Assembly: GCA_905234395.1 (NCBI GenBank)
Contig: CAJOHG010000011.1
Coordinates: 1 to 64,000 of the forward strand
Reading direction: 5' to 3'
Origin: an uncultured Selenomonadaceae bacterium
GTDB lineage: Bacteria; Bacillota; Negativicutes; Selenomonadales; Selenomonadaceae
Length of the DNA stretch: 64,000 bases
In this document: piece after piece, positions 1-17,350 of the stretch
How the letters are laid out: each line of letters opens with the position of its first letter
How positions within the stretch are numbered: position 1 is the first letter of the stretch
The notes under the pieces: generated by a model
What the model was told of the DNA's origin: nothing
The model's database searches: none
The model's input: only the letters and a program-made list of their open reading frames with translations
Program-made: the position numbers and the translations under genes

Positions 1-43
1 GATATTTTTCTATCTTTTCATATTGTTCTTGTGTGATTTTCAT
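1..43 (-). CDS. Transposase, 5' end only (runs off the window)
   Basis: Reading leftwards from an ATG at position 43, fourteen codons (MKITQEQYEKIEKY) remain before the window ends. This resembles the N-terminus of IS5-type DDE transposases, which often begin with a (M)xLTxxQYxxIE pattern. The fragment is too short for certainty. The upstream DNA contains a motif (about 78-98) that could be the terminal inverted repeat of the same element. It could equally be an unrelated small gene. Confidence 0.35.
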   Translation of the reverse strand, partial: MKITQEQYEKIEKY

Positions 44-77
44 GACTTCATTTTATCAGCTTTATTTTCTATTTTCC

Positions 78-98
78 ATAGTGTGAACACGCTCTAGT
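78..98 (-). mobile_element. Possible terminal inverted repeat of an IS element
   Basis: On the minus strand this reads TAGAGCGTGTTCACACTATG, directly upstream of the partial transposase-like gene. GTGTTCACAC is itself nearly palindromic. A GAGCGTGTT-type end upstream of the transposase start fits IS5-family ends as I remember them. The other end lies outside the window, so the element cannot be confirmed. Confidence 0.3.
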
Positions 99-149
99 CA
101 AGATTTAAGAAAAATTTAACAAAAAAATTTCGCGGGCAATGTGCGCATA

Positions 150-184
150 AAAAAAGCTCCCTTGCGTCGTGCAAAGGAGCTGTG
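150..184 (-). terminator. Rho-independent terminator after the SDR gene
   Basis: On the minus strand AGCTCC pairs with GGAGCT around a loop of about 15 bases, followed by a run of seven T. It lies just downstream of the SDR stop codon and closes the minus-strand cluster. Confidence 0.8.
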
Positions 185-193
185 AAAAATTTT

Positions 194-1027
194 TCAGTGC
201 GTCGCCTTGAGATATTGCAGGTCGCCGAAAAAGTATGAAGCAGTTGTTCCGCCGTCAATCAGAAAATCTGCGCCGCTGATGAATCGTCCGCGACTGCTCA
301 TCAAAAATTCCGCGAGGTCGCCGACTTCATCGGGCGTGCCGGCACGTCCTGCAGGTGATGCCGCCAACATTTTGCGATAACCTTCGCCGCGAGGCCCTTT
401 CAATTCGTCAGCTGCTAACGGCGTGATGATTATGCCGGGACTGATTGAATTGATCGTCGCGCCGCGTTTGCTCCAAGGTGTCGCTTGACCTGCCACGCGC
501 AAGACGTTGCAACGTTTGGAATATTGATAAGCCTTGAGAGTGTCGGTTATCGCCTTTATGAACGGCAAATTCAAAAGCTCTTCCGTCGGAGCAGTGGCGA
601 GCTGAAAATTTTGTTCTTCCGTCAATGCGCCGAGCCTGTGACCCGATTGCGAAGAGATTATCACGCCGGAGCCGCCGTCCGAAATTATTTTGCCGAATTC
701 TTCAAGCAAGACCGCCGTCCCGTATAAATCGACCTGCAAAATTTTTTCGACGGGTGCTTGCGAAGGACTCACGCCCGCCGCGTTAATCAAATTTTTCACT
801 GCACCGAATTGTTGAGCGTGTTCGATGAGTTTCAAAATCGATTCGCGGCTTGAAATGTCGACTGCGATTGTTGAAGTTTCAAAGCCTGCCTCTTCCAAAA
901 TTTTAGCCGCCGAATCTGCCGCCGATTGTTTCAAATCGCCCAAGACAACATGTTTGCCCGCGCCGACACGTCGAGCGATAGCTTGACCGATTGAGCCGGT
1001 GCCGACCAATACAACAACGTCTTTCAT
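194..1027 (-). CDS. Short-chain dehydrogenase/reductase (SDR)
   Basis: NAD(P)-dependent oxidoreductase of the classical SDR family, cytosolic, substrate unknown. The N-terminal Rossmann motif reads VLVGTGSIGQAIARRV. A central NAA-type motif (LINAAGVS), the catalytic YxxxK (YQYSK) and a C-terminal SPGIIITPL segment are present. The tail GADFLIDGG is typical of SDRs. I chose the ATG at 1027 because it overlaps the stop of the upstream lipoprotein gene (ATGA) and has GGGAGGC nearby. An in-frame start at 1042 is too close to the ribosome site. It is the last gene of the minus-strand cluster and is followed by a strong terminator. Confidence 0.88.
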   Translation of the reverse strand: MKDVVVLVGTGSIGQAIARRVGAGKHVVLGDLKQSAADSAAKILEEAGFETSTIAVDISSRESILKLIEHAQQFGAVKNLINAAGVSPSQAPVEKILQVDLYGTAVLLEEFGKIISDGGSGVIISSQSGHRLGALTEEQNFQLATAPTEELLNLPFIKAITDTLKAYQYSKRCNVLRVAGQATPWSKRGATINSISPGIIITPLAADELKGPRGEGYRKMLAASPAGRAGTPDEVGDLAEFLMSSRGRFISGADFLIDGGTTASYFFGDLQYLKATH

Positions 1028-1947
1028 CTGTTTGCCTCCCAAAAGTTAATTGCGTCGTCAATCCAACCTTGCGCCGAAGTGCCGAGTCCGAGTCCGAAGC
1101 CGTGTTCAAGATTCGGATACTTGTGAAATTCAGTGACGATACCATTCGCGGCAAGATTGTCAATGCAACGTTCCATTGTGCGCCAAGAAGCAATGCCGTC
1201 ACGTGCTCCGACGCAAGCAAACGTTGGCGGGTCATTGGCAGTATAATCGCTGTGACCGGTGTATTGCATGATGACAGCAGCAGGTCGCGGGATTTTGTCG
1301 CCGCCGAAATTTTCAGCACCGTAAGAGCCGAGATAAGCCGCCATACGCGCACCGGCAGAGCCTCCCCATAACGAGTAGCCGTTCACGTCAACGCCGAGTT
1401 CGTCCGCGTGTCGAAAGATGAAACTCAACGCCGCCGCCAAATCTTCGCAGGCAACTTGCGCAGAACCCGTCCGATATTGCAACGCGAAGGCATTGTAACC
1501 TTTGCGACTTAGATACAGCGCGTGCGGCAAACTTTCATGCAACAAACCGACATAAGCGAAACCGCCGCCGGCATTGACGACTGCAAACGGTGCACCTTTC
1601 TTGCCGCGCAAAAAGAATAAGCCTGTCTCAAATTTGCGGTCGTCGTCGTAAATCGCGTAGAAAATTTTTTCGCCGCGTTTAGCCCGCGCAGATAATTCGT
1701 TGAGCACGTCAAGCGTTGTATCGTCCGAAATGTGCGTGTGCCAGATGTAAAAATCTTTTAAGTCGCTAATTCGGTCGTCAGCCGATAAAGTTTTGACGCC
1801 CTGCGAAATCAGCAAGTGTCCGAATCCTGCGAACTCCGGGCGATTCATCACGTCAATCAATTTTGTTTCCGCGTTCATTTCAAGCGTCTCCATTGCCGCG
1901 AACTTTTGACAGCCGATTGAAAGTGCGACGAGTGAAATTATTATCAC
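1024..1947 (-). CDS. Alpha/beta hydrolase (esterase-like) lipoprotein with frameshifted signal peptide
   Basis: Carboxylesterase/lipase-like alpha/beta hydrolase. The nucleophile elbow is GGSAGAR, and a C-terminal LEHGFGLG holds the likely catalytic His. The intact frame opens at a GTG (1947) giving MIIISLVALSIGC, a hydrophobic stretch with a lipobox but no charged n-region. Better start signals lie further out: GAGGAG near 1975 and GTG at 1966, followed by codons for K-K-F-F. Removing one T from the T6 run at about 1955-1960 joins these to the main frame (VKKFFAVIII...). I infer an extra T has broken the normal lipoprotein signal. The gene overlaps the downstream SDR by 4 bp. Confidence 0.75.
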   Translation of the reverse strand: MIIISLVALSIGCQKFAAMETLEMNAETKLIDVMNRPEFAGFGHLLISQGVKTLSADDRISDLKDFYIWHTHISDDTTLDVLNELSARAKRGEKIFYAIYDDDRKFETGLFFLRGKKGAPFAVVNAGGGFAYVGLLHESLPHALYLSRKGYNAFALQYRTGSAQVACEDLAAALSFIFRHADELGVDVNGYSLWGGSAGARMAAYLGSYGAENFGGDKIPRPAAVIMQYTGHSDYTANDPPTFACVGARDGIASWRTMERCIDNLAANGIVTEFHKYPNLEHGFGLGLGTSAQGWIDDAINFWEANR

Positions 1948-1974
1948 CGCGAAAAAATTTTTTCACGCCGTCAG

Positions 1975-2240
1975 CTCCTCAAACGCCCTTGCCCAATTCA
2001 TAAGCCTTCGTCGCGAATTTGGACGTGCGAGCATCATTTTTTCGTAGAGCCATTGCCGAGACTTCTCCGCGCAATTTTTCTGTTGCCGCCAAAATTTTTT
2101 TCTCCGCCGATTGAGCCGCTTCCAATGCCTCGATTGTCTCTTTGCGTTCGCCGAAAGTTTATCGAATGCCGTTTGAGCCTCTGCGACCGTCATAATCTGC
2201 GCGGACTGCGACAAATTTTTTCTCTGTTGAGAAGTTCTCC
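1975..2240 (-). pseudogene. Displaced fragment of sbcC
   Basis: This minus-strand stretch matches the coiled-coil part of the intact sbcC at about 8500-8740. Shared peptides include KNLSQSAQI.TVA.AQTAFDKLSA, then, after a gap of roughly 57 bp and a frame change, ALEAAQSA.KKI and LRGEVSAMA. It sits between the DUF362 gene and the lipoprotein gene, has no proper start, and cannot encode a working protein. It is a diverged partial copy inserted or recombined about 6.5 kb from its source and in inverted orientation. Confidence 0.75.
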
Positions 2241-2252
2241 TAAATCGTCTGC

Positions 2253-3318
2253 TCAATCGACGCTAATCAGTTCATATTGACTGTTGCCCATTTTGTGATG
2301 CGCCATTGCCGTGAGCTGATGAAGTCCATGACGATCTTCAATGCGTTTGCGCAAATCGGCTGTGTCTTTTGCCGAGTAAACCAAATCGCAGCAAGCCTGA
2401 TCAATCGCCAAAATATCAGTCGACGCGAGAATTCCGACGTCCGCGCAGGTCGGTTCGGCAGCACGAGTTCCCGCGCAGTCACAGTCGACGCTCATTCGCC
2501 GCATCACGTTCAGGAAGACGATTCTCTTGCCGAAATAGTCACAAGTCGCCTTGCCGCTGTCAGCCATGCGTTCCATAAGGTGTTCTTTAAGAGGAAAAGT
2601 TCCGTCGAACCAATTAACGTCCTTAGGCGGCATACCGAGCTTGGTGTCGTAGCCGTGAACTTGAACTTTGCCGACGTGCCCGCTAGCCATGCCGATAGCG
2701 ATATTTTTCAAACTGCCGCCGAAGCCGCCCATTGCGTGCCCTTTGAAGTGCGTCAAAACGATGACCGAATCATAATTGACCAAATGACCGCCCATAGCCA
2801 CTTCCTTGAGGTGAAAGCCGTTGCGCACGGGAAAATTAACGTAGCCTTCGTCCGCGTCCATGATGTCGACTTCGCAGAAATTCCAGCCGTTGGTTTTAAT
2901 CGTCGCGAGATGATCTTCCGTCGTGTAGCGTTTGCCGACGTAAAGCGTATTCGTCTCGATGATGTTGGAATTCGGGACTTGAGCTTGAAAAGCTTTGACC
3001 ATGTCGCGCGGCAAAATGTTCGGACCGTTGGGTTCGCCGGTGTGAAGTTTAATAGCGACTTTGCCGTAAATTTCGCCGTTAATCATGTTGTAAAGCTTGA
3101 TGAGATGATCAGCGTCGATTTTTTCCGTGAAGTAAACTTTTGCCGCCGAGCCGCTGTGTGCCGGTGACGTTCTTTGAGCCGACGACAGGAGCCGCCTTGA
3201 GCTTGAGAATTTTTTTGCCATGAGCCGCCTCAACGTTTGAAGTCGTGAATTGTCCGACGGTTGCACCGATTGCCGCCACTCCCGCCATTTTGAAAAGATC
3301 TCTGCGTGTGATGTCCAT
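2253..3318 (-). pseudogene. DUF362 protein with Tat signal, frameshifted
   Basis: DUF362 family protein, often linked to Fe-S or redox maturation, predicted exported. The N-terminus from ATG 3318 is a twin-arginine signal (TRRDLFKMAGVAAIGATVG). The body includes VAIKLHTGEPNG, HFKGHAMGGFGGSLKN and a Cys-rich CDCAG segment. The two parts lie in different frames. Near 3160 (minus strand GGCACACAGCGGC) removal of one C joins VTGT to SGSAAKVYFTEKID. Either a real single-base insertion has inactivated the gene or this is a sequencing error. Two neighbouring genes are also frameshifted, which favours gene decay. Downstream of the flavodoxin gene by 15 bp. Confidence 0.75.
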
Positions 3319-3333
3319 GATGTTGCCTCCCGT

Positions 3334-3848
3334 TCAAATTTTGCTTTTAAGCCAACGTTCGACCTGCGCGGCAGATTGACCTGCCTGCGAGCCGTAAATT
3401 GCCAGACCGTCACTGATGACAGCTTTCGGGCAAATTTTTTTTATGTAATTGACGGAGCCGCCCAAGCCGCTGCCTTCATGCGTGCAGAACGGAAAAATTT
3501 TCTTGCCGCCGAAGTCGTAACGTTCAAGGAAAGTGCTCACTGCCATTGGCGGTATTGACCACCATATCGGATAGCCGAGAAAAATTTTGTCGTAGTCGTC
3601 GATGCTGTCAAGGTAGCGTTTCAATTCGGGACGCGCCTTCTGCTGAATCTCGACCTTCGCAACGTTGGTGCATTCGGTGTAGTCAACGGGATAATCTTTC
3701 ACGGTGTCAATCTCGAACAATTCGCCGCCGACAGAACGTTGAATCTCTCCGCGACAATTTCGGTGTTGCCCTTCGCCAAATTTTTTATCGCGCCGCTGAC
3801 GTAATTGAGACCTTTGCGCGAGTAATAGGCGATTAAAATTTTTGCCAT
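3334..3848 (-). pseudogene. Flavodoxin-like protein, frameshifted
   Basis: Short-chain flavodoxin family. The start is ATG 3848 with GAGGAG upstream, encoding MAKILIAYYSRKG, the phosphate-binding region and GNTEIVAER. The rest (IQRSVGGELFEIDTV, YDKIFLGYPIWW, FPFCTHEGSGLGGS) is in another frame. One base appears missing near 3745 (GAGAGATTCAAC). An internal ATG at 3720 could express only the last 128 residues, without the FMN phosphate loop. It is a paralogue of the flavodoxin at 5006-5611, but without a Tat signal. Genes of this kind act in FMN-based electron transfer. Confidence 0.75.
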
Positions 3849-3879
3849 GCTATCAGCTCCTCAATCAATGATTTGGCAT

Positions 3880-4989
3880 TCATTTAACATCAAGTCCTTT
3901 CGACTTCAACCACTGCTCCACCAAATTCGCAAGCTCTTGATTGTTTTGGTCTGCCATAAGAAAATGCGTATTGCCCTTGAGCCCAACCTTTGGAAGTTCA
4001 ATCAATGTAGCGTCTCCGCCGTGACGATTGACAGCCGCCACAAATTTTTTCGCCATCTCAAGCTCTGTATACCATTTGTCCGGGCCGACAAGCTCCGACG
4101 ATTTTTTGATGTTGTCGCCGTAATAGAGGACAATCGGAATTTTCGTCAACTTCATGAAGTCTTCGAGCGGTACTGCTTGAGCACTTGCACTTAGCGGAGC
4201 AAACGTTGCGACTTCTGCTTCGGGAACTTCGCCTTCAGGGAAAAGAAACGGTGTGCCGCCCGGTTCAAACGCGACGATAGCTTTAACCTTGTCGGTGCGG
4301 AAAGGTGTGCGCCAACCGATTGTTCCGCCCATGCTGTGAACCAGCAAAATTCCGTCACCGATTTTTTCAAACAGCGCGGCAAGTGCATCGGCATTAACGT
4401 CGTTGTCAAGTTCGCCGGTGTAATTTGTCCACGAGCGTTGAAATTGATTAATCGATTCGGCATCATTCGGAAAGGCGGCGTTGTCGAAAACGTGCGGAGT
4501 GTCACCGTCAAAAGTTCCGATGCGGCTCAACATGAACAAAGTTTTATCGGCATAGAGCGGATTTCCTGCCCAAGGATTTTTATCGCCGACAGCTTCCGTC
4601 GAAAGTCCTGCCTCGCCGATTCGCGGTTGGTCTAAAAGATAAACGCCGTAGCCTTTGCGCAGGAAAATATTTTGGAAACCTTCGCGACCGTCGGGCGTTG
4701 ATTCCCATGTGCGTTTAGATTGTGCACCGCCGTGTTGAAAAACTAACGGATATTTTTTCGCCTTGACGGGAATTTGATAGAAAACATAAGCATGATCTCC
4801 GTAAGCGCGTTGACCTTCGGGCGAGAGAAAATTTTTCGTCGAGAAAGTGCCCGCGTGTTTGACAGTCGAGCCGCCGATTGCGAAACTGCCTTGCTCTTGA
4901 ATCACAATCGGCTTTGCCGCGTCGACTGTACTCAACGGGCTGAACGCGATTAATCCTGCCGCCAATGTTGCCAAAAATTTTTTCCGCAT
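3880..4989 (-). CDS. Secreted alpha/beta hydrolase
   Basis: Exported esterase-like hydrolase of 369 residues. A Sec signal peptide (MRKKFLATLAAGLIAFSPLS...VDAA) is followed by an alpha/beta hydrolase domain with PLVFQHGG near the oxyanion region. The nucleophile elbow is VHSMGG (Ser), and a C-terminal GNTHFLM supplies the likely catalytic His. The substrate is unknown. It lies between two flavodoxin genes, with spacing of 16 bp to the upstream one, so it is probably co-transcribed. No defects are seen in this gene, unlike its downstream neighbours. Confidence 0.85.
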   Translation of the reverse strand: MRKKFLATLAAGLIAFSPLSTVDAAKPIVIQEQGSFAIGGSTVKHAGTFSTKNFLSPEGQRAYGDHAYVFYQIPVKAKKYPLVFQHGGAQSKRTWESTPDGREGFQNIFLRKGYGVYLLDQPRIGEAGLSTEAVGDKNPWAGNPLYADKTLFMLSRIGTFDGDTPHVFDNAAFPNDAESINQFQRSWTNYTGELDNDVNADALAALFEKIGDGILLVHSMGGTIGWRTPFRTDKVKAIVAFEPGGTPFLFPEGEVPEAEVATFAPLSASAQAVPLEDFMKLTKIPIVLYYGDNIKKSSELVGPDKWYTELEMAKKFVAAVNRHGGDATLIELPKVGLKGNTHFLMADQNNQELANLVEQWLKSKGLDVK

Positions 4990-5005
4990 AACTTTTTGTC
5001 TCCTG

Positions 5006-5611
5006 TTACAAGCCGAGCCGTTTCAAATTTTCGACGACGATTGATTCAGCCTCCGAACGATTGTTCTGCGCAACAGAACCTCTGATTGCAAAACCTTTGA
5101 GCACCTGCGCGGACGGACAAGTCAAAGAAATTGTCTGATCGGTGCCAGAAAGACCGCTGCCGCCGTGTGTGCAGAACGGAACGATTTTTTTGCCGCCGAA
5201 GTCGTAGCGTTTAAGGAACGTCTCGACAATCTGCGGATAAGCTCCGTACCAAATCGGATAGCCGATAAAAATCATCGTGTAGTGCGAAAAGTTTTCCACG
5301 TCGCCGACAAATGCCGGTTGAGCCTTAGTCGCCTTCTCGCGGCTTGCAATGCGTTTGCAGTCTTCGTAGCCGATAGGATAAGGCGTTACAGGTTTAATCT
5401 CGAATAAATCTCCGCCGACTTTTTGCGCGATAATCTCCGCGACAATCGCCGTGTTGCCTTTGCTGATGGTGCCGAGTCCGTATTCTTCGCCCGTGCGCGA
5501 AAAGTAAGCGACCAAAATTTTTTCACTCGTCGCGGCGTCAACTCGTCCGAACGAAAGCAAAAGTCCCGTCGTGCCCGCAAGCTTGATAAAATTTCTGCGC
5601 GTCATGTTCAC
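5006..5611 (-). CDS. Flavodoxin family protein with Tat signal
   Basis: Exported flavodoxin-fold protein, predicted to bind FMN. The N-terminus carries TRRNFIKLAGTTGLLL, a twin-arginine signal. The mature part has VAYFSRTGEEYG (phosphate loop), MIFIGYPIWYGAYP and VPFCTHGGSGLSGT. The start is placed at GTG 5611 because GGGAG lies 8 bases upstream. ATG 5605 is possible, and GTG 5620 is too close to the ribosome site. A broken copy of the first third lies immediately upstream at 5654-5799. First intact gene of the minus-strand cluster. Confidence 0.82.
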   Translation of the reverse strand: MNMTRRNFIKLAGTTGLLLSFGRVDAATSEKILVAYFSRTGEEYGLGTISKGNTAIVAEIIAQKVGGDLFEIKPVTPYPIGYEDCKRIASREKATKAQPAFVGDVENFSHYTMIFIGYPIWYGAYPQIVETFLKRYDFGGKKIVPFCTHGGSGLSGTDQTISLTCPSAQVLKGFAIRGSVAQNNRSEAESIVVENLKRLGL

Positions 5612-5640
5612 GTCAATCACTCCCGAAATTTTCTTGACGC
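5466..5640. repeat. Segmental direct repeat, flavodoxin 5' end, copy 1
   Basis: About 175 bp covering the ribosome site and first third of the flavodoxin gene is repeated at 5654-5828 (offset 188 bp). The copies differ by scattered substitutions. This copy belongs to the intact gene. Confidence 0.9.
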
Positions 5641-5653
5641 TGATTAGCGATTT

Positions 5654-5799
5654 ATGGTGCCGATGCCGTATTCTTCGCCTGTGCGCGAAAAGTAAGCGAT
5701 CAAAATTTTTTCACTCGTCGCGGCTGAAACTCATCCGAAGGACAGCAAAAGTCCCGTCGTGCCCGCAAGCTTGATAAAATTTCTGCGCGTCATGTTCAC
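5654..5799 (-). pseudogene. Truncated duplicate of the flavodoxin 5' end
   Basis: Repeats the start of the downstream flavodoxin gene: GTG 5799, MNMTRRNFIKLAGTTGLLLSFG. A TGA then replaces the Arg codon of the intact copy. The downstream peptide ATSEKILIAYFSRTGEEYG is still recognisable before homology ends near 5654. It retains the ribosome site (GGGAG) and lies next to the promoter. Any product would be a 20-odd residue Tat-signal-like peptide. It is a diverged remnant of a partial tandem duplication. Confidence 0.85.
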
Positions 5800-5830
5800 G
5801 TTAATCACTCCCAAAATTTTCTTGACGCCA

Positions 5831-5862
5831 ATTATAAGCCGTTGAGTCGGCTCTAAGTAAAT
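5831..5862 (-). promoter_or_regulatory. Promoter for the flavodoxin cluster (minus)
   Basis: A perfect TATAAT on the minus strand (5831-5836) lies about 30 bp upstream of the duplicated flavodoxin start. The -35 (TTTACT-like, near 5857) is weak. Confidence 0.45.
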
Positions 5863-5935
5863 ACTTTTGAAAAAAATTTTTATCGTCATCGAATGTGATA
5901 TAATTGCCGCAAAATTTTTGGAGGCGATTTTTTTT

Positions 5936-7015
5936 ATGAGACTGCTGCACACCGCCGATTGGCACCTGGGCAAAACGTTCAAAGGTCAACCGCTGCTCGA
6001 CGACCAAAAATTTATTCTCGACGAAATTTTTCACGTCATTGCCGCTGAAAAGATCGATGCGATTTTGATTGCCGGCGATATTTACGACCGCGCCGTTCCG
6101 CCGATTGATGCCGTTGATTTGTTTGACGAAACGCTAAACCGTCTTGCCGAAAAGAATTTGCCGACGCTGATTGTCGCGGGCAACCACGACAGCGCAACTC
6201 GTTTGAATTTCGGCAGCAAACTTTTCGAGCGGCAAAAAATTTTCATCGCGTCGAAAGTCAACGCCGCGCCCGTGACTGTTCCGATTGATGACGACTTCGG
6301 CAAAATTTATTTCACGTTGTTGCCGTTCGCCGAACCTGTCGCACTTACCGCAATGATAAATTCTGCGCGGCAAAAAATTCCGTCGGGCAAAAGAAATGTC
6401 GCGGTTGCTCACGCATTTTTGACGGGCGGCATTGAATCCGATTCGGAACGCAAATTCGTCGGCGGCACTTCAAACGTCGACGCGCAAATTTTCAACGGCT
6501 ATAATTACGTTGCGCTTGGTCATCTTCATCGTCCGCAAAAGATCACTGCTGAAAATATTCGATACGCCGGCTCTCCGCTGAAATATTCCTTCGACGAGGC
6601 AACGCATAAAAAGTCCGTCACGATTGTCAATTTGAATGCAAAAGGTTTCGTCGACGTGGAAAAAATTCCGCTCACTCCGCGCCGAGATGTTCGCATTGTC
6701 ACGGGCACGCTTGCCGAGCTCAAAAAATTTCCGCGCACCGAAGATTACATTCACGCACGCCTTACCAAACGAGAGATTAACGCTCAAGATAAGCTTGCCG
6801 ACGTTTTCCCGAATCTGTTGAGCGTTGAATTTGTCCTGCCGCAAGAAATTTCAATCGGCAACACGACGACGACTGCTCTGCGTGAAGGCGGCTCAACGCT
6901 CGACTATTTCACGGATTTTTTTGCTGAACAGACCGGCGAGACTTTGAACGACGATTATCGGGCGGCAATGCAGAATTTGTTGATTGAACTTGCTCGCGAC
7001 GAAATGGAGGCATGA
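5936..7015 (+). CDS. sbcD: Exonuclease SbcCD subunit D
   Basis: Nuclease subunit of SbcCD (Mre11 homologue), which cuts hairpins and processes DNA ends in repair. The calcineurin-like metal motifs are clear: LHTADWHLG at the N-terminus, AGDIYDR, VAGNHD, and GHLHRPQ further on. Length of 359 residues fits the family. I chose ATG 5936, preceded by GGAGG; an in-frame upstream start at 5867 gives a non-conserved extension. A TATAAT at 5899-5904 may serve as -10. The gene ends 3 bp before the sbcC start, with the sbcC ribosome site inside its last codons. Confidence 0.95.
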   Translation: MRLLHTADWHLGKTFKGQPLLDDQKFILDEIFHVIAAEKIDAILIAGDIYDRAVPPIDAVDLFDETLNRLAEKNLPTLIVAGNHDSATRLNFGSKLFERQKIFIASKVNAAPVTVPIDDDFGKIYFTLLPFAEPVALTAMINSARQKIPSGKRNVAVAHAFLTGGIESDSERKFVGGTSNVDAQIFNGYNYVALGHLHRPQKITAENIRYAGSPLKYSFDEATHKKSVTIVNLNAKGFVDVEKIPLTPRRDVRIVTGTLAELKKFPRTEDYIHARLTKREINAQDKLADVFPNLLSVEFVLPQEISIGNTTTTALREGGSTLDYFTDFFAEQTGETLNDDYRAAMQNLLIELARDEMEA

Positions 7016-7018
7016 ACT

Positions 7019-9646
7019 TTGAGACCGATTAAACTTAAAATGACGGCGTTTGGTGCGTATGTCAAACCTGTTGAAATTGACTTCGTGAAAGGACTCGGCG
7101 GCGAAAATTTTTTTCTGATACACGGCGCGACCGGCTCCGGCAAGACCACGATTCTTGACGCGATTTGCTTTGCACTTTATGGCGAAAGTTCCGGCGGCGG
7201 ACGAACCGGCAATATGATGCGCTCCGAACAGGCATCGCCCAACGACAAGACCGAAGTTGAATTCAAATTCGCAGTGCGCGGCAAAACTTACACAATCAAA
7301 CGCAGTCCAAAATATTTGCGACCGAGCAAACGCGGCGGCGGCTTGACGGAAGAGAAAGCTTTTGCGGAAATTCGGATTGACGGCAGACTAATTGAGACGC
7401 GAGACGTTTCGGAATATGTGCGCGACCTTTTGCATTTTAACAGCGAACAATTCCGCCAAGTGATTATGTTGCCGCAAGGTGCCTTCCAAAAATTTTTGCT
7501 CGCAAAATCGGACGACAAACAAAAAGTCTTGAACACGCTCTTTAACGCAGAATTTTTTAAGCGCGTGGAAGACGAACTCAAGCTCCGAATGTCCACGGCA
7601 CGCAGCAAATTTGAAACGTTGTCGGCACGCAAAAGCGGCTTGCTCGACGAGGCGGCTTGCAAAGAAAATGAATTGCCCGCGCTGATTAAAAAAATTTCTG
7701 CGGATCTCGACGCGTCACAAATTCGGCTCAAGACGTTGGAAGCTCAATCACTCGACGCACAAAAAAAATTCTCCGACGGCGAAATTTTAGATAAGGCGTT
7801 CGACGATTTGAAAAAGAAATCGCAGGCTTTAACCGAAGCTCAACGGTTGCTTGAAAAAATTTCCGCTGAACTGTCCGCCGCAAAAATCGAACTCGACAAA
7901 CGCACGGCTGAAGAAATTCGGCGCAAAGAATTGGATCGATTGACAGCTGACCTTGCCGCAAAAAAAGACGCGCTCGGAAAATTGCAAGGCAAACGTCGCG
8001 AACTTCAATCGGCAATCGAATCGGCGGAAAAATCTTCGGCTCAAGTCGCACGGCTCACGAAACTTAAACAGGCTTGCGATGACACGATGTCAAAGCTCAC
8101 GGCTCAAGTCGAACGCCTTCAAGACGCGCCTGCAAAAAAAATCGTTGCCGAAAAACTTTTGGACGACCTTAAAGCGATTGTCGAACTGCGCGGAAAAATT
8201 TCATTGGCGGAAAAAAATTTCTCGACAGCAACTCAAGCTCACGACGCGGCAGAGAAAATTCTTTCCGAACTTCGCGGACGACAAATTTCGGGAAGTGCGG
8301 CACGATTGGCGTTGACGTTGACGGACGGCGAACCTTGCCCTGTGTGCGGAGCGATTCATCATCCGTTGCCGGCAAAATCAGACGCAGCAATTCCAACCGA
8401 CGCTCAAATAAAATCCGCCGAATCAAAGCTTAAACAGCTCATCGCCGATAAAAATTCCGCCGCAGAAAATTTGGCACGTTTGAAAGGCGAACTCGTCATC
8501 AGAGAAAAAAATTTGTCGCAGTCCGCGCAGATTGTCACGGTCGCACAGGCTCAAACGGCATTCGACAAACTTTCGGCGGACGTTCAAGCACTGGAGCATT
8601 TTCGCGCGCGAATCAAGAACGGCGAATCAAAAACGCAAGAGACAATCGCGGCATTGGAAGCGGCTCAATCGGCGGACAAAAAATTTTCCGAGTCGTTGAA
8701 CACACTGCGCGGCGAAGTGTCGGCAATGGAACGCAACGTTGACGCAAAATATTTGACCGATAAAAATTTGCTCGACGCGGAAATTTCTTCAACAACCAAA
8801 GAACTCAACACACTCAATGCGGCGTTCAAATTCGCGCAGGAAAATTTCAATCGGCTCAACAATCAATCGGCGGCTCAACGCTCAACGGTCGAATCGGCAC
8901 TGAAAATCAAATCGGAAGTCGCGGCTCAAGTCGACGGCAAAACTCAACCTGACCTTGACGCGCTGAAAAAATTTCGTGACGACACGCGGGCGGCTGAACG
9001 TTCGGCAATCGACGCCAAAGCAAAATTATCTGCGCGGCTCGAACGATTGACGGAGCTTGCGAAAAAAATTTCGGCACTCGACGACGACTTGACCGTTGCC
9101 GACAAAAATTTTCTGATGTGGAAGACGCTTTCTGACACGGCAAGCGGCAAGGTCTCAAAAATTTCTTTCCAGCGATTTTATCTTGCGACGATGTTTAACG
9201 AAGTCATTGCCGAGGCGAACAATCGGCTTGAGAAAATGAGCGGCGGACGTTATCGATTCAAGCGCAAAGAGAACGTTACGGATCGTCGTATCGGCGGCGG
9301 CTTGGATTTGGAAATTTTCGACGACTACACCGGCTCAACGCGTCCCGTCGAAACTTTGAGCGGCGGTGAAAGTTTTTTGGCGTCGTTGAGTCTCGCGTTA
9401 GGCTTGGCGGCTGTCGTGCAGAACAATTCGGGCGGCATCAAACTCGACACGATTTTTATTGATGAAGGCTTCGGCACACTCGACACGGAGACGCTCGATT
9501 TCGCGATGAAAACTTTGCTTGAACTGCAGAGCGGCGGAAGATTGGTCGGGATAATTTCGCACGTCGAAGAGCTGAAAAATCAAATGCCAGTCCGCTTGGA
9601 AGTCATCAAGACAAAATTCGGCTCGACTGCAAGATTCAAAAGCTAA
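7019..9646 (+). CDS. sbcC: Exonuclease SbcCD subunit C (SMC-like ATPase)
   Basis: Rad50-like ATPase partner of SbcD. The N-terminal Walker A is HGATGSGKTT. A long coiled coil follows, and the zinc hook CPVC lies near residues 440-443. The C-terminal half holds the ABC signature LSGGESF and Walker B FIDEGFGTLD. The 875 residues are slightly shorter than many SbcC. The start is TTG 7019, supported by GGAGG nine bases upstream within the sbcD end. A piece of its coiled-coil region (about 8500-8740) has a degraded second copy near 1975-2240 on the other strand. Confidence 0.95.
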   Translation: MRPIKLKMTAFGAYVKPVEIDFVKGLGGENFFLIHGATGSGKTTILDAICFALYGESSGGGRTGNMMRSEQASPNDKTEVEFKFAVRGKTYTIKRSPKYLRPSKRGGGLTEEKAFAEIRIDGRLIETRDVSEYVRDLLHFNSEQFRQVIMLPQGAFQKFLLAKSDDKQKVLNTLFNAEFFKRVEDELKLRMSTARSKFETLSARKSGLLDEAACKENELPALIKKISADLDASQIRLKTLEAQSLDAQKKFSDGEILDKAFDDLKKKSQALTEAQRLLEKISAELSAAKIELDKRTAEEIRRKELDRLTADLAAKKDALGKLQGKRRELQSAIESAEKSSAQVARLTKLKQACDDTMSKLTAQVERLQDAPAKKIVAEKLLDDLKAIVELRGKISLAEKNFSTATQAHDAAEKILSELRGRQISGSAARLALTLTDGEPCPVCGAIHHPLPAKSDAAIPTDAQIKSAESKLKQLIADKNSAAENLARLKGELVIREKNLSQSAQIVTVAQAQTAFDKLSADVQALEHFRARIKNGESKTQETIAALEAAQSADKKFSESLNTLRGEVSAMERNVDAKYLTDKNLLDAEISSTTKELNTLNAAFKFAQENFNRLNNQSAAQRSTVESALKIKSEVAAQVDGKTQPDLDALKKFRDDTRAAERSAIDAKAKLSARLERLTELAKKISALDDDLTVADKNFLMWKTLSDTASGKVSKISFQRFYLATMFNEVIAEANNRLEKMSGGRYRFKRKENVTDRRIGGGLDLEIFDDYTGSTRPVETLSGGESFLASLSLALGLAAVVQNNSGGIKLDTIFIDEGFGTLDTETLDFAMKTLLELQSGGRLVGIISHVEELKNQMPVRLEVIKTKFGSTARFKS

Positions 9647-9662
9647 TCTTTGCCGCGACGCG

Positions 9663-9691
9663 TTGACTTTTGGCAAACTGTTTCCTATAAT
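9663..9691 (+). promoter_or_regulatory. Consensus sigma-70 promoter
   Basis: TTGACT at 9663-9668, 17 bp spacer, then TATAAT at 9686-9691. It lies 48 bp upstream of the binding-protein gene, just after the sbcC stop, so the downstream gene is likely transcribed on its own. Confidence 0.85.
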
Positions 9692-9739
9692 CCTGCGCAG
9701 GAAATATTCAGTGAAAATTTTTTGGGAGGTTGAACGGAA

Positions 9740-10936
9740 TTGTTTTCCATCGGTAAAAAGTTCAAATTGGCGTCAATGATCGCTTGCGGGATTTTGGCAA
9801 GTGCATTGTTCACGGGCTGCGGCGGCGGAGATTCTGCAGGCGGCGGCGAAAAAAAATCTGCGGGCGATGAAATCGTCATCGGCGCAAACTTCGAGTTGAC
9901 AGGCAACGTCGCTCAATACGGCGCAAATGCCAACAACGGTCTCAAGCTCGCAATCAAAGAGATTAACGACGCGGGCGGCATCAACGGCAAGAAAATCAAA
10001 GTCGTCGAGGCTGATGCCAAATCCGAAGCTGCAGAAGCCGTCAACGCCGCGACCAAATTAATTTCCGACGACAATGTTGTTGCGCTTATCGGCCCGGCTG
10101 TCACTGCCAACGTCATCGCCGAATCGCAAGTTGCAACTGACAACAAAGTCCCGATTATCGCTCCTGCCGCGACCAATCCCGACGTGACGATTGAAAATGG
10201 CGAAGTCAAACCGTTTGTCTTCCGCGCATGTTTCATCGACCCGCAACAATCCGAAGTTATGGCTCAATTCGCCGCCAAAGATTTGAACGCGAAAACCGCC
10301 GTGCTTTACATTGATTCAAGCTCCGATTATTCCAAGAGTCTCGGCAAAATCTTCAAGGAAAAATTCGAGGCTGACGGCGGACAAGTCGTCATGGAAGAGG
10401 CTTTCCTTGCCAAAGACCAAGACTTCAAAGCCGCGTTGACAAAAATTCAAACCGCCAACGCTGATGTTATTTTCGTTCCTGCTTATTATGAGGAAGTCGG
10501 CAAAATCATCAAACAGGCTCGCGAACTCGGAATCAACGCCGCAATTCTCGGCACCGACGGTTGGGACGATGTTAAGGTTATCGAAATCGCCGGCAAGGAC
10601 GCGCTCAACAATACTTTCTTCTGCACGCACTGCTTTGAAGGCGAAGAGAGTATGCAAGCTTTCATCAACGCTTACAAGGCGGAATACAAAGCCGAACCCA
10701 ACGCTTTTGCGGCACTCGGCTACGACGCAGGCAAAATGTTGATTGATGCCATTCAACGCGGCGGCGAAGACTCCGAAAAAATTCGCGCCAACATCGAGAG
10801 CATAAAAGACTTGCAAGTCGGCACCGGCAAAATCACGATGGATGCCGCGACGCACAATCCGATTAAAGGCATCGTCGTTATCGAGACCAAAGACGGCGTT
10901 CGCTCACTGCGCACCAAAATCGCGCCCGAAGGTTAA
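9740..10936 (+). CDS. Branched-chain amino-acid ABC transporter substrate-binding lipoprotein
   Basis: Periplasmic-binding-protein type 1 fold of the LivJ/LivK family, which captures leucine, isoleucine, valine or related ligands for an ABC importer. The N-terminal lipoprotein signal ends in LFTGCGGG. The mature part begins with EIVIGANFELTG and continues with NNGLKLAIKEINDAGG, a hallmark of the family. The start is TTG 9740 with GGGAGGT upstream. No permease or ATPase genes of a Liv system are adjacent. It is a single-gene unit bounded by its own promoter and a terminator. Confidence 0.92.
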   Translation: MFSIGKKFKLASMIACGILASALFTGCGGGDSAGGGEKKSAGDEIVIGANFELTGNVAQYGANANNGLKLAIKEINDAGGINGKKIKVVEADAKSEAAEAVNAATKLISDDNVVALIGPAVTANVIAESQVATDNKVPIIAPAATNPDVTIENGEVKPFVFRACFIDPQQSEVMAQFAAKDLNAKTAVLYIDSSSDYSKSLGKIFKEKFEADGGQVVMEEAFLAKDQDFKAALTKIQTANADVIFVPAYYEEVGKIIKQARELGINAAILGTDGWDDVKVIEIAGKDALNNTFFCTHCFEGEESMQAFINAYKAEYKAEPNAFAALGYDAGKMLIDAIQRGGEDSEKIRANIESIKDLQVGTGKITMDAATHNPIKGIVVIETKDGVRSLRTKIAPEG

Positions 10937-10978
10937 TCAAAATTTTTTCGCGACAAAATCATCACGACAAATAAAAAT

Positions 10979-11008
10979 CTCCACGAAATTTTTCGCGGAG
11001 TTTTTTTT
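10979..11008 (+). terminator. Rho-independent terminator
   Basis: CTCC(A)CG pairs with CG(C)GGAG around an AAATTTTT loop, followed by eight T. It closes the binding-protein gene and also faces the convergent DUF2156 gene. Confidence 0.85.
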
Positions 11009-11020
11009 GTTGCCAATGAT

Positions 11021-11926
11021 TCAAGCAAGCGTCGCGTTAAACTTTTCAATCAGCTTCACGGGACGATAAGATTCTTTCGCCTGCCGCAAGCCGTCAATGC
11101 CCATGTCTTCTTCGCGATTGATGTAAGTCATTTCCGACCATTCATGCGCAACAAAACTTTGATTAATCGCAACGTAAATGCCGCGAACGTCGGGATCAGC
11201 TTTTTCGACGTGGATAACCGCCGTGTCAGAATTTAGCCGCTCGCCGAACGTGAACGCCACGACTTTATCATCAATCAGAATCGCGCCGCCTTTGAGTTTG
11301 AACGCGTCGAAGTGGTCAAAAATCTCGTGAATCGCCGCCTGCTCATAACCGATAAACGGATCGTCGGGATTGTCTCGCTTATGCGTCGTGTACCACAAAT
11401 TCAACTCGTCGCGGCACTTCGGGATAATTTCTTCGGTTATCGGCAAATAAACGGCGTCGGGATATTCTTTGCGGAAGGCGTTCAGATGATTTTTCTTGCC
11501 GTGAAATTTTCTGCCGGAAAGGTTAATCAAATCCTGCGACAGATAAACGTAGTCGAAATTGTTGCGGTCAACGGTGATGTCAAATTTCGCGTGAGGATAC
11601 CGTGTCAACTCGTCGGCAAAACTTTTCTCCAGTCCGACAAAGAAAACTTCCTGCTTTTGCTCGTCAAAGAATCGAATCATTTTGGTGATGGCGTCTTGCA
11701 AATTTTCCTGCGCACCAATCGGTTGCCACGCCGCGATTTTTCCTTGCCAATGTGCAATGACGTAAAGCACGCCGTCTTCCGTCGCCCAATGCAGATTGAG
11801 CATTTCGCGCCACATGAAAAGATTCGTGAAGGTGTATTGCGCACTCTCGCAGTATCGCGCACCGTAAAACTCGTCAAAAACTTCCTTGTCCTTACACTCC
11901 AACTTTTTGAAGTTAATTTTGTCCAC
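11021..11926 (-). CDS. DUF2156 protein (lysyl-phosphatidylglycerol synthase C-terminal-like)
   Basis: A 301-residue soluble protein of the DUF2156 family, which shares its double GNAT fold with the catalytic half of MprF and FemX-type aminoacyl transferases. Visible family traits are the N-terminal YTFTNLFMWRE and FHGKKNHLNAFRKEYPD. The C-terminal YINREEDMGIDGLRQAKESY is strongly conserved. It lacks the membrane half of MprF, so lipid lysinylation is not implied. Its start overlaps the end of the cysteine-rich protein gene (11913), suggesting translational coupling at the end of a seven-gene minus-strand run. Confidence 0.82.
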   Translation of the reverse strand: MDKINFKKLECKDKEVFDEFYGARYCESAQYTFTNLFMWREMLNLHWATEDGVLYVIAHWQGKIAAWQPIGAQENLQDAITKMIRFFDEQKQEVFFVGLEKSFADELTRYPHAKFDITVDRNNFDYVYLSQDLINLSGRKFHGKKNHLNAFRKEYPDAVYLPITEEIIPKCRDELNLWYTTHKRDNPDDPFIGYEQAAIHEIFDHFDAFKLKGGAILIDDKVVAFTFGERLNSDTAVIHVEKADPDVRGIYVAINQSFVAHEWSEMTYINREEDMGIDGLRQAKESYRPVKLIEKFNATLA

Positions 11927-12647
11927 TCTCCTCGAATAAAAGTTCCGCCAAATGAAAAGCTTTTGAGCTGCCCAATTTTAAACCGCGCAAGCAATAATGA
12001 CAATACGCCGCAACTTTTTCCGTTTGAATCGCCGCGCAGTGTTCGTGCATGAGCTGAAATTTTTCGTCGTCGGTGTGCGGTTGAAACAAACCTTTTGCGC
12101 CGTGCAAAAATTTTTTCGGTGCAAGTGCAGGATTTCTCGGCGGTTGCGGCTGATACAACGAGTAGCCGCAAAATTTTGTTCGCTCATGATTTTCGGGCAG
12201 TTCGACGACTTCAAAGTTCATGCGTCGCAAAATTTCTCGAACAGCCGCTTGCTCCGCGAAGTTCTCCTTCGACCGCCAACAATCTTGAATCGTAATTGCT
12301 TCGCCGTGATGATTCGGGTAAGAAAATTTTTCGTCGGAAAGTATCAGTTCCCAAATCGACTCGCGCAAAATTTCGGGATGTTGCTCCTCGAAAATCGCCG
12401 AGCAGTTGTGACAAACTGAAACCATCGTTGAGCCTGGCGGAAATTTTTCAAAGTGTTTAATCGCGCGCCACTCGTCACGATAATTTTCCGGCATGCGCTC
12501 TTCAAACTCCGCGACCTTATAATTTTTGACGCAACAACGAATTATCGGCAAGTCGAATCGTTCGCGAATGTAAGATTGAACTTTGAAACTTAGCGCGGGA
12601 TATTCTTCCGTGAACACGCAACTTGCCACGTAAAATTTCTGATTCAT
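11913..12647 (-). CDS. Cysteine-rich (probable Fe-S/redox) protein
   Basis: 244 residues from ATG 12647, which overlaps the upstream hydrolase stop region. It has clustered cysteines: RCCVKNYK, SVCHNCSAIF, DCWRSKE, KFCGYSL and YCHYCLRGL. This pattern recalls the CCG-type domain of heterodisulfide-reductase-like proteins, so a metal- or Fe-S-binding role is possible. I do not recognise the exact family. No signal peptide or membrane segment is seen. An in-frame upstream extension to 12770 lies inside the hydrolase gene and is not credible. Confidence 0.7.
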   Translation of the reverse strand: MNQKFYVASCVFTEEYPALSFKVQSYIRERFDLPIIRCCVKNYKVAEFEERMPENYRDEWRAIKHFEKFPPGSTMVSVCHNCSAIFEEQHPEILRESIWELILSDEKFSYPNHHGEAITIQDCWRSKENFAEQAAVREILRRMNFEVVELPENHERTKFCGYSLYQPQPPRNPALAPKKFLHGAKGLFQPHTDDEKFQLMHEHCAAIQTEKVAAYCHYCLRGLKLGSSKAFHLAELLFEESGQN

Positions 12648-12648
12648 G

Positions 12649-13491
12649 TCAAGCACTCCAATTTTTAATCGACGCCGCAATTTCCGCACAATGACTTTCC
12701 AAGGCGAAATGTCCGCTCTCGACGAATTCAATCTGCGCGGACGGCAAATCTTTCTTGAATGCCTGTGCACCTTGGCAAATGAACGACGGATCGTTTTTGC
12801 CCCACACCGCCAAAAGTTTCGGGTGATGTTCGCGCAGATATTTTTGGAAGGTCGGATACAGCGCGACGTTGCTTTGATAATCGAAAATCAAATCGGATTG
12901 AATTTCGTCGTAACCGGAACGGTTCGTGTAAAAAATATCCAGCGAATAACCGTCGGGCGCAACAGAATTTTCGGGCGTGCCGAAAGTGTATTGTCCGATA
13001 ATCGTTTCGGCGGCGAATGCAGCTTTGTATTGCTCGCGAAGTTCGGGCGTGGGATTTTTCCAATATTCGGCACGAGCCGCCCATTTCACGCCGAGACCTT
13101 CCGCGTAGACGTTGCCGTTTTGACTGACGAGACCCAAAATTTTCTGCGGATTTTTTGCAGCAATGCGAAAACCAATCGGCGCACCGTAATCGAAGACGTA
13201 CATGAAAAATTTTTCGACGCCGAGCCGTGCAAGAAATTTTTCAATGACGGCGGCAAGATTGTCGAAGGTGTAAGAGAAATTTTCACGCGGCGGCATATCG
13301 GATTGACCGAAGCCGGGATAATCGGGCGCGATTAAATGAAACTTGTCCTCAAGCATCGGAATTAAATCGCGGAACATGTGACTTGACGAAGGGAAACCGT
13401 GAAACAAAATCATTGTCGGCTTATCGACTGCGCCTGCCTCGCGATAAAAAATTTTCACGCCGTCCACGTCAAGCTTTTTGTAAGTCGTCAC
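12649..13491 (-). CDS. Alpha/beta hydrolase, haloalkane dehalogenase/epoxide hydrolase-like
   Basis: A 280-residue cytosolic alpha/beta hydrolase. ILFHGFPSSSHMFRDL carries the HG oxyanion motif. The nucleophile elbow reads YVFDYGAPIG, with Asp rather than Ser, as in haloalkane dehalogenases and epoxide hydrolases. Further motifs are LLAVWGKNDP (acid) and ESGHFALE (catalytic His). The true substrate cannot be deduced. Preceded by a small hypothetical gene 12 bp upstream and followed directly by the cysteine-rich protein gene. Confidence 0.87.
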   Translation of the reverse strand: MTTYKKLDVDGVKIFYREAGAVDKPTMILFHGFPSSSHMFRDLIPMLEDKFHLIAPDYPGFGQSDMPPRENFSYTFDNLAAVIEKFLARLGVEKFFMYVFDYGAPIGFRIAAKNPQKILGLVSQNGNVYAEGLGVKWAARAEYWKNPTPELREQYKAAFAAETIIGQYTFGTPENSVAPDGYSLDIFYTNRSGYDEIQSDLIFDYQSNVALYPTFQKYLREHHPKLLAVWGKNDPSFICQGAQAFKKDLPSAQIEFVESGHFALESHCAEIAASIKNWSA

Positions 13492-13503
13492 AAAAATTTC
13501 TCC

Positions 13504-13761
13504 TTAAGTCAATTTTCTGATGTCGTCAACGAAACCATTCAGCGGTCGAACGTAATTTTTCATGCCAAGATGCGCCGAACATTTTTGATAAGTGTCGCTC
13601 GTATTCGGAAGGTAAAAAATTTGTCGTTGCTCGCCGAGCCGAACAATTTTGTCGTCCGATAAATCTTTGTCAAACGTTATCAAGTGCCACAGCTCTCGAA
13701 TTTTGAAATGCGACAACGTTCCTCTGTCCGCTTGACTTAACTGCTTCCAACGCTCGCGCAA
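13504..13761 (-). CDS. Small hypothetical protein
   Basis: An 85-codon frame from TTG 13761 that overlaps the preceding RHH gene by about 90 bp in a different frame and ends 12 bp before the hydrolase start. It has a protein-like composition (IRELWHLITFDKDLSDDKIV, MKNYVRPLNGFVDD) and no recognised domain. A large overlap with the RHH gene could mean a paired small module. It could also mean a frameshift that split one longer protein near 13700-13760. Confidence 0.4.
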   Translation of the reverse strand: MRERWKQLSQADRGTLSHFKIRELWHLITFDKDLSDDKIVRLGEQRQIFYLPNTSDTYQKCSAHLGMKNYVRPLNGFVDDIRKLT

Positions 13762-13993
13762 AGTCCGCTTGCAACTTTTTACCGTCAGCCTCTGTAATGA
13801 ATTCTTCGCCGTGATTTTTAATGTATTCCTCTACTCCATTTTGAATAAGTTTTGAAAGACTTAATCCCAATTCCCGTGCCGCCATTTTGTACGAGCCAAG
13901 CTTACCCTTAGGAATATCTACAATAAGTCGCTCCCGCTTATCTTTTTGACGAGGTTCTCTGCATATTAATCGCTTGTTTTTTGATGTCGTCAT
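13670..13993 (-). CDS. Ribbon-helix-helix-like DNA-binding protein
   Basis: 107 residues. The N-terminal half (ERLIVDIPKGKLGSYKMAA, LGLSLSKLIQNGVEEYI) fits an Arc/CopG-type ribbon-helix-helix: a short strand, then two helices. Such proteins act as antitoxins or repressors. The tail is hydrophilic. The next gene overlaps its 3' end but is not a recognised toxin, so a toxin-antitoxin role is not established. Located 26 bp downstream of the DNA methyltransferase gene. Confidence 0.55.
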   Translation of the reverse strand: MTTSKNKRLICREPRQKDKRERLIVDIPKGKLGSYKMAARELGLSLSKLIQNGVEEYIKNHGEEFITEADGKKLQADFARALEAVKSSGQRNVVAFQNSRAVALDNV

Positions 13994-14019
13994 CGAAACT
14001 CCTCCTTAATTGAAAGATT

Positions 14020-15614: not shown

Positions 15615-16526
15615 TCACGTCGTCGCGAAAAAATCCGTTGCCATAAGTTGGCGCGTGAACGATGATTGTGCGTCGGTGATAAGTTGTCGCGGCGTGCCCT
15701 GTTCGACGATGCAACCGTTGTGCAAGACGATAACACGGTCGGCGATTTTCGGTAACAGTGCCAAGTCGTGCGTGATGAACAAGCACGCGATATTTTTTTT
15801 CACGCAGAGATTTTTTATCAGCGCAACGACTTGAGCTTGAATCGTCACGTCAAGCGCGGAAGTTGCTTCGTCGCAAATTAAAAGTTTCGGCTCAACGGAA
15901 ATTGCCCTTGCTATCGCCGCACGTTGACATTCGCCGCCGCTAACTTCGCGCGGATATCGTTCGGCATAATTTTTCGACAGTCCGACTTCTGCCAAAAGTT
16001 TTTCGACTTTAGCTTTAAGCTTTGAGCTTTGAGCTTTTAGAGGTGTATTTTCCTTAAAGCTTAAAGCTTCAAGCTCCAAGCTTTTAAAATTTTTAATCGG
16101 TTCGGCGATGCTTGCTCCCAAAGTTCTGCGCGGGTCGAAAGAATCTTCGGGCGTCTGAAAAATCATCTGCATGTTGCGATAAAAAGCGTTGCCGGTCGCG
16201 TGAGTGATGTCTTCGCCGCAGAGAAAAATTTTTCCGCCGTCGCAGTCAATCAATCGCGCAATGATTCTCGCCAACGTCGATTTGCCGCAACCGCTCAAGC
16301 CGACAATCCCTAAAATTTCGCCCGCGTCGACAGAAAAATTCACGTCGTCAAGGATTAGTTGATTGCCGAAAAATTTTTTGACGTGCCGAACTTGCAAAAC
16401 GTTCATGATGTCGCTCCGATTAATTCTTGCGTGTAAATTGCCCGCGTCGATAGAAAAATTCACGTCGTCAAGGATTAGTCGCTTGCCGAAAAATTTTTTG
16501 ACGTGCCGAACTTGCAAAACGCTCAT
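15615..16526 (-). CDS. ABC transporter ATP-binding protein (DppF/OppF/NikE-type) with duplicated N-terminus
   Basis: ATPase of an oligopeptide/nickel importer. Walker A is GLSGCGKSTLA, signature VSGGECQRAAIARA, Walker B LLICDEATSALD, H-loop FITHDLALL. The first 40 codons are an in-frame tandem copy of the next 40, so the protein reads VLQVRHVKKFFG...DDVNFS twice. The ancestral start is the ATG at 16406, and the outer ATG at 16526 overlaps the upstream ATPase stop. Residues around FKSLELEALSFKENTPLKAQSS are a repeat-derived low-complexity insert (16011-16085). The partner permeases are missing from the window. Confidence 0.88.
   Translation of the reverse strand: MSVLQVRHVKKFFGKRLILDDVNFSIDAGNLHARINRSDIMNVLQVRHVKKFFGNQLILDDVNFSVDAGEILGIVGLSGCGKSTLARIIARLIDCDGGKIFLCGEDITHATGNAFYRNMQMIFQTPEDSFDPRRTLGASIAEPIKNFKSLELEALSFKENTPLKAQSSKLKAKVEKLLAEVGLSKNYAERYPREVSGGECQRAAIARAISVEPKLLICDEATSALDVTIQAQVVALIKNLCVKKNIACLFITHDLALLPKIADRVIVLHNGCIVEQGTPRQLITDAQSSFTRQLMATDFFATT
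16011..16085. repeat. AGCTTTG heptamer-type repeat inside an ATPase gene
   Basis: Two arms of AAGCTTT/AGCTTTG-like units (16011-16038 and 16053-16085) in inverted orientation are translated in frame as a Lys/Leu/Ser-rich stretch. Related ATPases have a shorter linker here, so the repeat appears to have been accommodated within the coding region. Confidence 0.65.
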
Positions 16527-16559
16527 GATGTCGCTCCGATTAATTCTTGCGTGTAAATT
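16320..16559. repeat. 120-bp tandem duplication spanning an ATPase gene junction
   Basis: Copies 16320-16439 and 16440-16559 differ at a few bases. Each contains the end of the upstream ATPase coding sequence (YTQELIGAT), its overlapping stop, and the first codons of the downstream ATPase. The unit is 40 codons, so the downstream frame stays open. Confidence 0.93.
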
Positions 16560-17284
16560 TCTTGTGGTGCGTTGAAAATTTGATCGCGCGTGCCGAATTC
16601 GATTGCCGCTCCGTGTCGCAGGATTAAAATTTTGTCCGCCATACGTCGTGCGATTTTCAAGTCGTGCGTGACCATGACGATTGAAATTTTCAGCCGCTCG
16701 CGCAGATTCAGCAGCTCTTTGACGACGCCGATTTGTGTCACAACGTCCAATGCGCTGGTCGGTTCGTCGGCAAGCAAAAGTTTCGGTTCGAGAATCGTCG
16801 CCGCCAAAATTCCCGCACGTTGCGCCATGCCGCCCGAAAGTCTGAACGGATATTCGTCAAGCGTCGCGGAGTCGAGATTTATTTTCCGCATGAGTTCAAA
16901 CGCTCGTTCGCGGAAAAATTTTTTGTCCCAATCGCGATGAGCTTTGACGCTTTCAAAAATTTGGTCGCCGATTGTGCGTATCGGGCAGAAACTCGCGCCG
17001 GCATTCTGAAAAATCATTCCGATTGAGTCGCCGGAAATTTTGCGTCGCTCGTCGTCTGAAAGGTTAGTGATGTCGCGTCCGTCGAAGAAAATTTTGCCGC
17101 CGACAGAAAAATTTTTGCCGAGCAGTCCGTCAATCGCCTTTAAAATCGTCGACTTGCCGCTGCCAGATTCGCCCGCGATAATCAAAATTTCTCCGCGCTC
17201 AACAGAAAAATTCACGTCGTGCAAAATTTTTTTCCCGCCGCAATCAACATGCAGATTTTCAACCGTCAAAAGTTCGTTCATCAA
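16523..17284 (-). CDS. ABC transporter ATP-binding protein (DppD/OppD/NikD-type)
   Basis: 253-residue ATPase, first of a pair. Walker A is AGESGSGKSTILKAID, signature LSGGMAQRAGI, Walker B LLLADEPTSALD, H-loop MVTHDLKIA. The Q-loop region contains GMIFQNAGASF. It lacks the long C-terminal OppD extension, as do many nickel/opine-type ATPases. The upstream DNA (17300-17350) shares a repeat and terminator with 20399-20450. It should work with the binding protein at 18844-20376, but no permease gene lies between them. Confidence 0.9.
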   Translation of the reverse strand: MMNELLTVENLHVDCGGKKILHDVNFSVERGEILIIAGESGSGKSTILKAIDGLLGKNFSVGGKIFFDGRDITNLSDDERRKISGDSIGMIFQNAGASFCPIRTIGDQIFESVKAHRDWDKKFFRERAFELMRKINLDSATLDEYPFRLSGGMAQRAGILAATILEPKLLLADEPTSALDVVTQIGVVKELLNLRERLKISIVMVTHDLKIARRMADKILILRHGAAIEFGTRDQIFNAPQEIYTQELIGATS

Positions 17285-17299
17285 ATCACTCCGCGAAGA

Positions 17300-17345
17300 A
17301 TTTTAAACGACGTTTGCAAAAAAAATAAGCCCTGCGCGGGGATAG
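17300..17345. repeat. Dispersed direct repeat, copy A
   Basis: About 45 bp starting TTTTAAACGACGTTTGC and running into the terminator stem recurs almost exactly at 20399-20444. The two copies flank the block with both solute-binding protein genes. Confidence 0.85.
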
Positions 17346-17350
17346 GGCTT
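17319..17350 (-). terminator. Rho-independent terminator
   Basis: On the minus strand AAGCCC pairs with GGGCTT around a GC-rich loop, followed by ATTTTTTTT. It ends the solute-binding gene at 17372. Confidence 0.8.

Follow-up and report, generated by a model that had tools for sequence, protein, structure and literature searches.

A displaced, inverted fragment of sbcC between a DUF362 gene and a hydrolase gene, shared by two species of an uncultured Selenomonadales genus

Gene-fragment pseudogenes of bacteria are recognized by their significant match to a portion of an intact gene and by the lack of an intact frame or of coding constraint. Double illegitimate recombination was reportedly described in Acinetobacter baylyi by Hulter and Wackernagel in 2008, and a 2016 paper is said to have dealt with a short-patch form of it (SPDIR) in the same organism. 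The short-patch events mostly concern tens of bases. Microhomology-mediated template switching, which yields a templated insertion, takes place at broken or stalled forks. PMC13344027 cites Hulter and Wackernagel 2008.

An initial annotation of the DNA analyzed here had proposed that a displaced, inverted and degraded piece of sbcC lies at 1975-2240, and blastn bore this out with corrected borders. The window, by which we mean the whole stretch of DNA that was analyzed (64,000 nucleotides), comes from an uncultured Selenomonadaceae bacterium, referred to as G000 among the genomes of its genus. The locus consists of the following features.

2253-3338, minus strand: DUF362 gene, upstream neighbor (PF04015, E 2.4e-37), with its N-terminal part in another frame
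2242-2252, minus strand: spacer from the DUF362 stop codon to the relic, identical in genome G020
2145-2241, minus strand: first piece of the relic, a copy of sbcC 8485-8582 (90%)
2143-2144, minus strand: internal deletion site, where sbcC 8583-8636 is absent, also in G020
2050-2142, minus strand: second piece of the relic, a copy of sbcC 8637-8729 (82%), with differences clustered at 8684-8705
1979-2049, minus strand: remaining 3' end of a lost FMN-reductase gene, about 20 recognizable codons and the stop (PF03358 family in genome G026)
1024-1947, minus strand: alpha/beta hydrolase gene, downstream neighbor (PF20434/PF07859)
7019-9646, plus strand: intact sbcC, an open frame of 875 aa with AAA_23 and SbcC_Walker_B domains
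8485-8729, plus strand: source stretch within sbcC, from blastn against the window and the genome

The pairwise alignment that had been suggested as a check was run as a blastn search of 1801-2400 against the window. It matched, in each case on the opposite strand, 2145-2241 to 8582-8485 (88/98 bases, 90%, E 4e-32) and 2050-2142 to 8729-8637 (76/93, 82%, E 1e-20). When the whole genome was searched (2.83 Mb, 157 contigs), these two matches had E values of 1.7e-30 and 1.7e-19 and bit scores of 129 and 92, and the next-best matches reached at most 39 bits. In this respect, the relic resembles a gene-fragment pseudogene, since it significantly matches a portion of an intact gene. Its proposed placement held for 2050-2241 and failed for 1975-2049, which has no match to sbcC and was recognized as the end of the FMN-reductase gene. 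The source had been rightly assigned to sbcC, and its borders were corrected from about 8500-8740 to 8485-8729, a stretch of ~245 bp from which the inverted relic lies ~6.2 kb away. A genome-wide search for additional sbcC fragments, which had also been suggested, came back empty at E ≤ 1e-5: when the entire sbcC gene was used for the search, there was no non-self match beyond the two relic pieces, neither a second full sbcC nor any further fragment in the genome. The idea that the remainder of sbcC once resided at the 2050-2241 site was rejected, since no trace of its other parts was seen there.

The first piece of the relic is one base shorter than its source in sbcC and than the copy in G020. 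At the internal deletion site, the relic has one extra A and lacks about 53 bp of sbcC (8583-8636). The missing stretch has ACG at both ends in sbcC, which fits a deletion between short repeats. The first bases of the relic (2229-2239) form a short palindrome, GAGAA-C-TTCTC on the minus strand, which sbcC itself does not have and which is created by three of the four differences to sbcC in this interval.

The initial annotation had considered the relic notable for coming from sbcC, since SbcCD processes hairpins and DNA ends, and this was not supported. No hairpin or mobile element, no sign of end processing and no antisense arrangement was found that would link the relic to SbcCD function, and the genes beside it are read on the strand that is sense to sbcC. 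Nothing was found to connect the relic to what SbcCD does at hairpins or ends; the source, sbcC, is just a long gene that lies about 6 kb away.

Several other observations were made on the neighboring genes. The flavodoxin gene (3334-3855) and the DUF362 gene in its N-terminal part (about 3165) are each split over two frames, which reflects either a decaying gene row or base-calling errors. Ahead of the hydrolase gene, 1940-1970 contains a AAAAAATTTTTT run, and a VKKFF start is one frame off the lipoprotein-like leader in both G000 and G020. G020 (L039:1437-1786) likewise carries a partial tandem duplication of the hydrolase 3' end, such that 1038-1189 of the window matches twice.

The claim that duplication in the window is not only tandem was supported by this inverted, dispersed piece of sbcC. 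Partial tandem duplications of two copies are found at 5466-5834, 16320-16559, 47710-48131 and 49837-50105, with periods of 120-223 bp and 93-96% matches. Judged without comparison, four of these look many for 64 kb, and they either are habitual in the genus or arose when the assembler merged overlapping variants of strains. A non-coding stretch of 86 bp with a hairpin-like, GC-rich core occurs twice near transporter genes (17278-17361 and 20378-20460; same orientation, 88% identical, 3 kb apart). Tandem units of 27, 54 and 81 bp occupy 24952-25310, and these resemble GGxGxD calcium-binding (RTX-type) repeats.

Among 66 genomes of the genus, our own included, an orthologous relic was found in only one of the 65 others, G020, where 294/294 bases aligned at 95% identity (E 4.6e-128). 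On the G020 contig (4415 bp), DUF362, the relic, the hydrolase and an SDR gene follow one another as they do in the window, with which they share 90-93% identity, and the two species are about 7-10% apart in flanking DNA. The internal deletion in the G020 relic matches that of G000, and the one-base deletion of G000 is absent from it. Since the relic and its neighbors are common to both genomes, the relic is old and not an assembly error. The sbcC gene of G020 was not found in its genome, which is an estimated 60% complete. Matches at E ≤ 1e-6 in G022, G066, G069 and G073 were rejected as relics, as they fall within the sbcC genes of these genomes. The initial annotation overlooked this second species, as it did the FMN-reductase 3' end at 1979-2049.

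When 1982-2056 is read on the minus strand, it ends in RKNDARTSKFATKAYELGKGV, followed by a stop. In the 25-residue tail that lies outside sbcC, 12/19 residues match the C-terminus of an FMN reductase encoded in G026, which is 177 aa long (PF03358, E 1.8e-23). This was the best tail match outside G000 and G020 among the 66 genomes, with an E value of 0.005 as calculated for one genome. Four more weak matches were found in G011 (two), G002 and G081 (E 0.08 to 0.78), of which the one on G011:C17 falls in another protein of the kind of the G026 FMN reductase. None of 20,000 shuffled sequences reached the score of the tail, whether that of G000 or that of G020 was used. A blastx search of the gap against the G026 FMN reductase gave an E value of 8e-6, in an alignment that also extends into the sbcC-like part. 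In G026, the FMN-reductase gene is directly downstream of a DUF362 gene, whose product ends in nearly the same residues as that of this genome (GNSQYELISID in this genome and GNSQYELISVD in G026). What follows the FMN-reductase gene in G026 is a flagellar-hook-like frame, named by eye from its residues, and not a hydrolase gene. The FMN-reductase protein of G011 is encoded elsewhere and not beside DUF362. The neighbors of the hydrolase gene vary among other relatives: in G019, the hydrolase gene is directly followed by DUF362, and in G002 a cupin-like gene (named by eye) stands between them. No genome intermediate between the FMN-reductase row and the relic was found among the 66. Taken together with the synteny in G026, the sequences give good grounds for reading the ~245-bp sbcC piece, which directly abuts the FMN-reductase 3' end, as occupying the position of an FMN-reductase gene. 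Almost all of this gene would have been replaced and not just interrupted, with only its 3' end left. This reading is good but limited, because the synteny of DUF362 and FMN reductase comes from one genome.

The sbcC frame is broken in both relics, by the missing base in G000 and by a stop codon in the frame of G020; because of this stop, a coding role for the 97-aa frame (1963-2256) was rejected. Nine private substitutions that arose after the split of the two species and have a clear direction fall 5/2/2 on the old codon positions 1/2/3. A broken frame and substitutions that do not favor third positions indicate that the relic is non-coding. It therefore also lacks the intact frame and the coding constraint whose absence marks a gene-fragment pseudogene.

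The relic is probably a gene fragment that was put between DUF362 and the hydrolase by illegitimate recombination and replaced the FMN reductase, where the single step and the mechanism are what we infer. An ancestral row of DUF362, FMN reductase and hydrolase would have lost the reductase except for its 3' end, and the gap may have been filled with a strand of sbcC through illegitimate recombination at short, imperfect homologies. This could have involved template switching at a stalled fork; alternatively, a single strand that came from this cell or a related one could have annealed at these homologies. The joins would lie near AGGxGAACT...TCA on the left and ATGG on the right; these homologies are short and imperfect and were read by eye off decayed sequence. 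A later deletion between the two ACG triplets would have removed the 53 bp. No inverted or direct repeats of at least 9 bases were found at the two joins, and no transposase was recognized by eye in the frames of 1-14000.

It is possible, though doubtful, that the piece came from outside, as an sbcC allele that was taken up from a related strain or species and joined by illegitimate recombination. Of the 23 fixed differences between the relics and the sbcC of G000, 13 fall in 8684-8705, where the relic is closer to the alleles of G069 and G001 than to its own sbcC, and the sbcC of G000 resembles that of G022. However, in a tree of 191 aligned columns with sbcC from nine relatives, both relics and the sbcC of G000 formed one clade (100% bootstrap), making the piece as a whole a sister of its own sbcC. 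The two parts of the G000 relic are 90.7% and 81.7% identical to that gene, compared with at most 75.3% and 69.9% in the nine relatives (G022 being the nearest). Moreover, later allele exchange in the resident sbcC would yield the same pattern, and the 8684-8705 cluster reflects either a sister allele as the source or a resident sbcC that has since exchanged that bit.

Another explanation, which we consider unlikely, is that the relic has been retained because it serves the hydrolase gene as a leader or spacer, in the form of a transcribed region that controls translation. Between G000 and G020, 10/261 aligned sites of the relic and tail differ, where four gap columns in the tail may hide a few more substitutions. 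In the hydrolase and SDR genes, 53/275 four-fold sites differ (28/136 and 25/139), so that divergence is lower in the relic (p 1e-8). This speaks against a neutral relic, which should equal them, and is in favor of a leader, as is a ribosome-binding-like GAGGAG that was seen by eye in the alignment at the end of the FMN tail, ahead of the hydrolase. In contrast, the divergence is not lower at p<0.05 than that of the sole other non-coding stretch compared (95-193; 8/97 sites differ, p 0.10), and an indel separates the relics of the two species. There was no Rfam match in 1-12000, and in 1850-2400 no terminator-like site was present and promoter-like sites were weak. The low divergence is explained equally well by recent exchange of a tract and by constraint. 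Such a tract is plausible because of this non-coding stretch and because the 33 hydrolase codons adjoining the relic show 0/12 four-fold differences; divergence is high to both sides of this region (four-fold differences of 5/12 in 1747-1846 and 8/23 in DUF362), a pattern that resembles an exchanged tract more than constraint. It is quite improbable that a single event swapped most of the FMN reductase for a piece of the resident sbcC and that this patch was then kept, or passed between species, as a functioning hydrolase leader; if true, the leader would explain why the relic differs less than the four-fold sites of its neighbors.

An assembly chimera, in which an sbcC read was misjoined, is conceivable in a genome of so many contigs with an estimated contamination of 4.69%, but it is very improbable and was ruled out as an artefact by the same joins in the separate G020 genome with its diverged flanks, the copy itself also being diverged from sbcC. 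Chance similarity through coiled-coil codon use, which the initial annotation had named as the finding that would count against a copy, has a negligible probability, for although sbcC coiled coils share their composition with other genes, a control in which the sbcC coiled coil was cut into 23 overlapping pieces of 300 nt, each compared with the remainder of the window, reached at best 40.1 bits (median 31.9) versus 129 and 92 bits for the relic, which shows that the copy is real.

To return to the preferred reading of a fragment joined by illegitimate recombination, the relic today is old, ordinary and non-coding, and it is probably a functionless, inherited scar of faulty recombination. Similar to template switching, it presents an inverted copy from a few kilobases off with putative short homologies at the joins; these joins are too decayed for proof, and the comparison uses the present position of sbcC. 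Similar to double illegitimate recombination, a stretch would have been replaced by an unrelated one, from the same or another genome, with putative joins at short homology. In contrast to short-patch events, which mostly concern tens of bases, ~245 bp here stand in place of roughly 500 bp; the one-step origin is conjectural in this comparison, and the host is not an organism known to be transformable. The origin of the relic would work like one of these two processes, of either of which it is a candidate case. The relic resembles bacterial gene-fragment pseudogenes in being an internal piece of a resident gene with no start, a broken frame, indels and divergence from its parent, and it differs in that it also stands in for most of another gene and is old enough to be common to two species. 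It is a natural case, in two species, of a piece of one gene standing in for another, in which both source and victim can be identified. Such patches arise and persist in this uncultured Selenomonadales genus, with no bearing on SbcCD function, and the relic is a further case of the known gene-fragment relics, real but ordinary.
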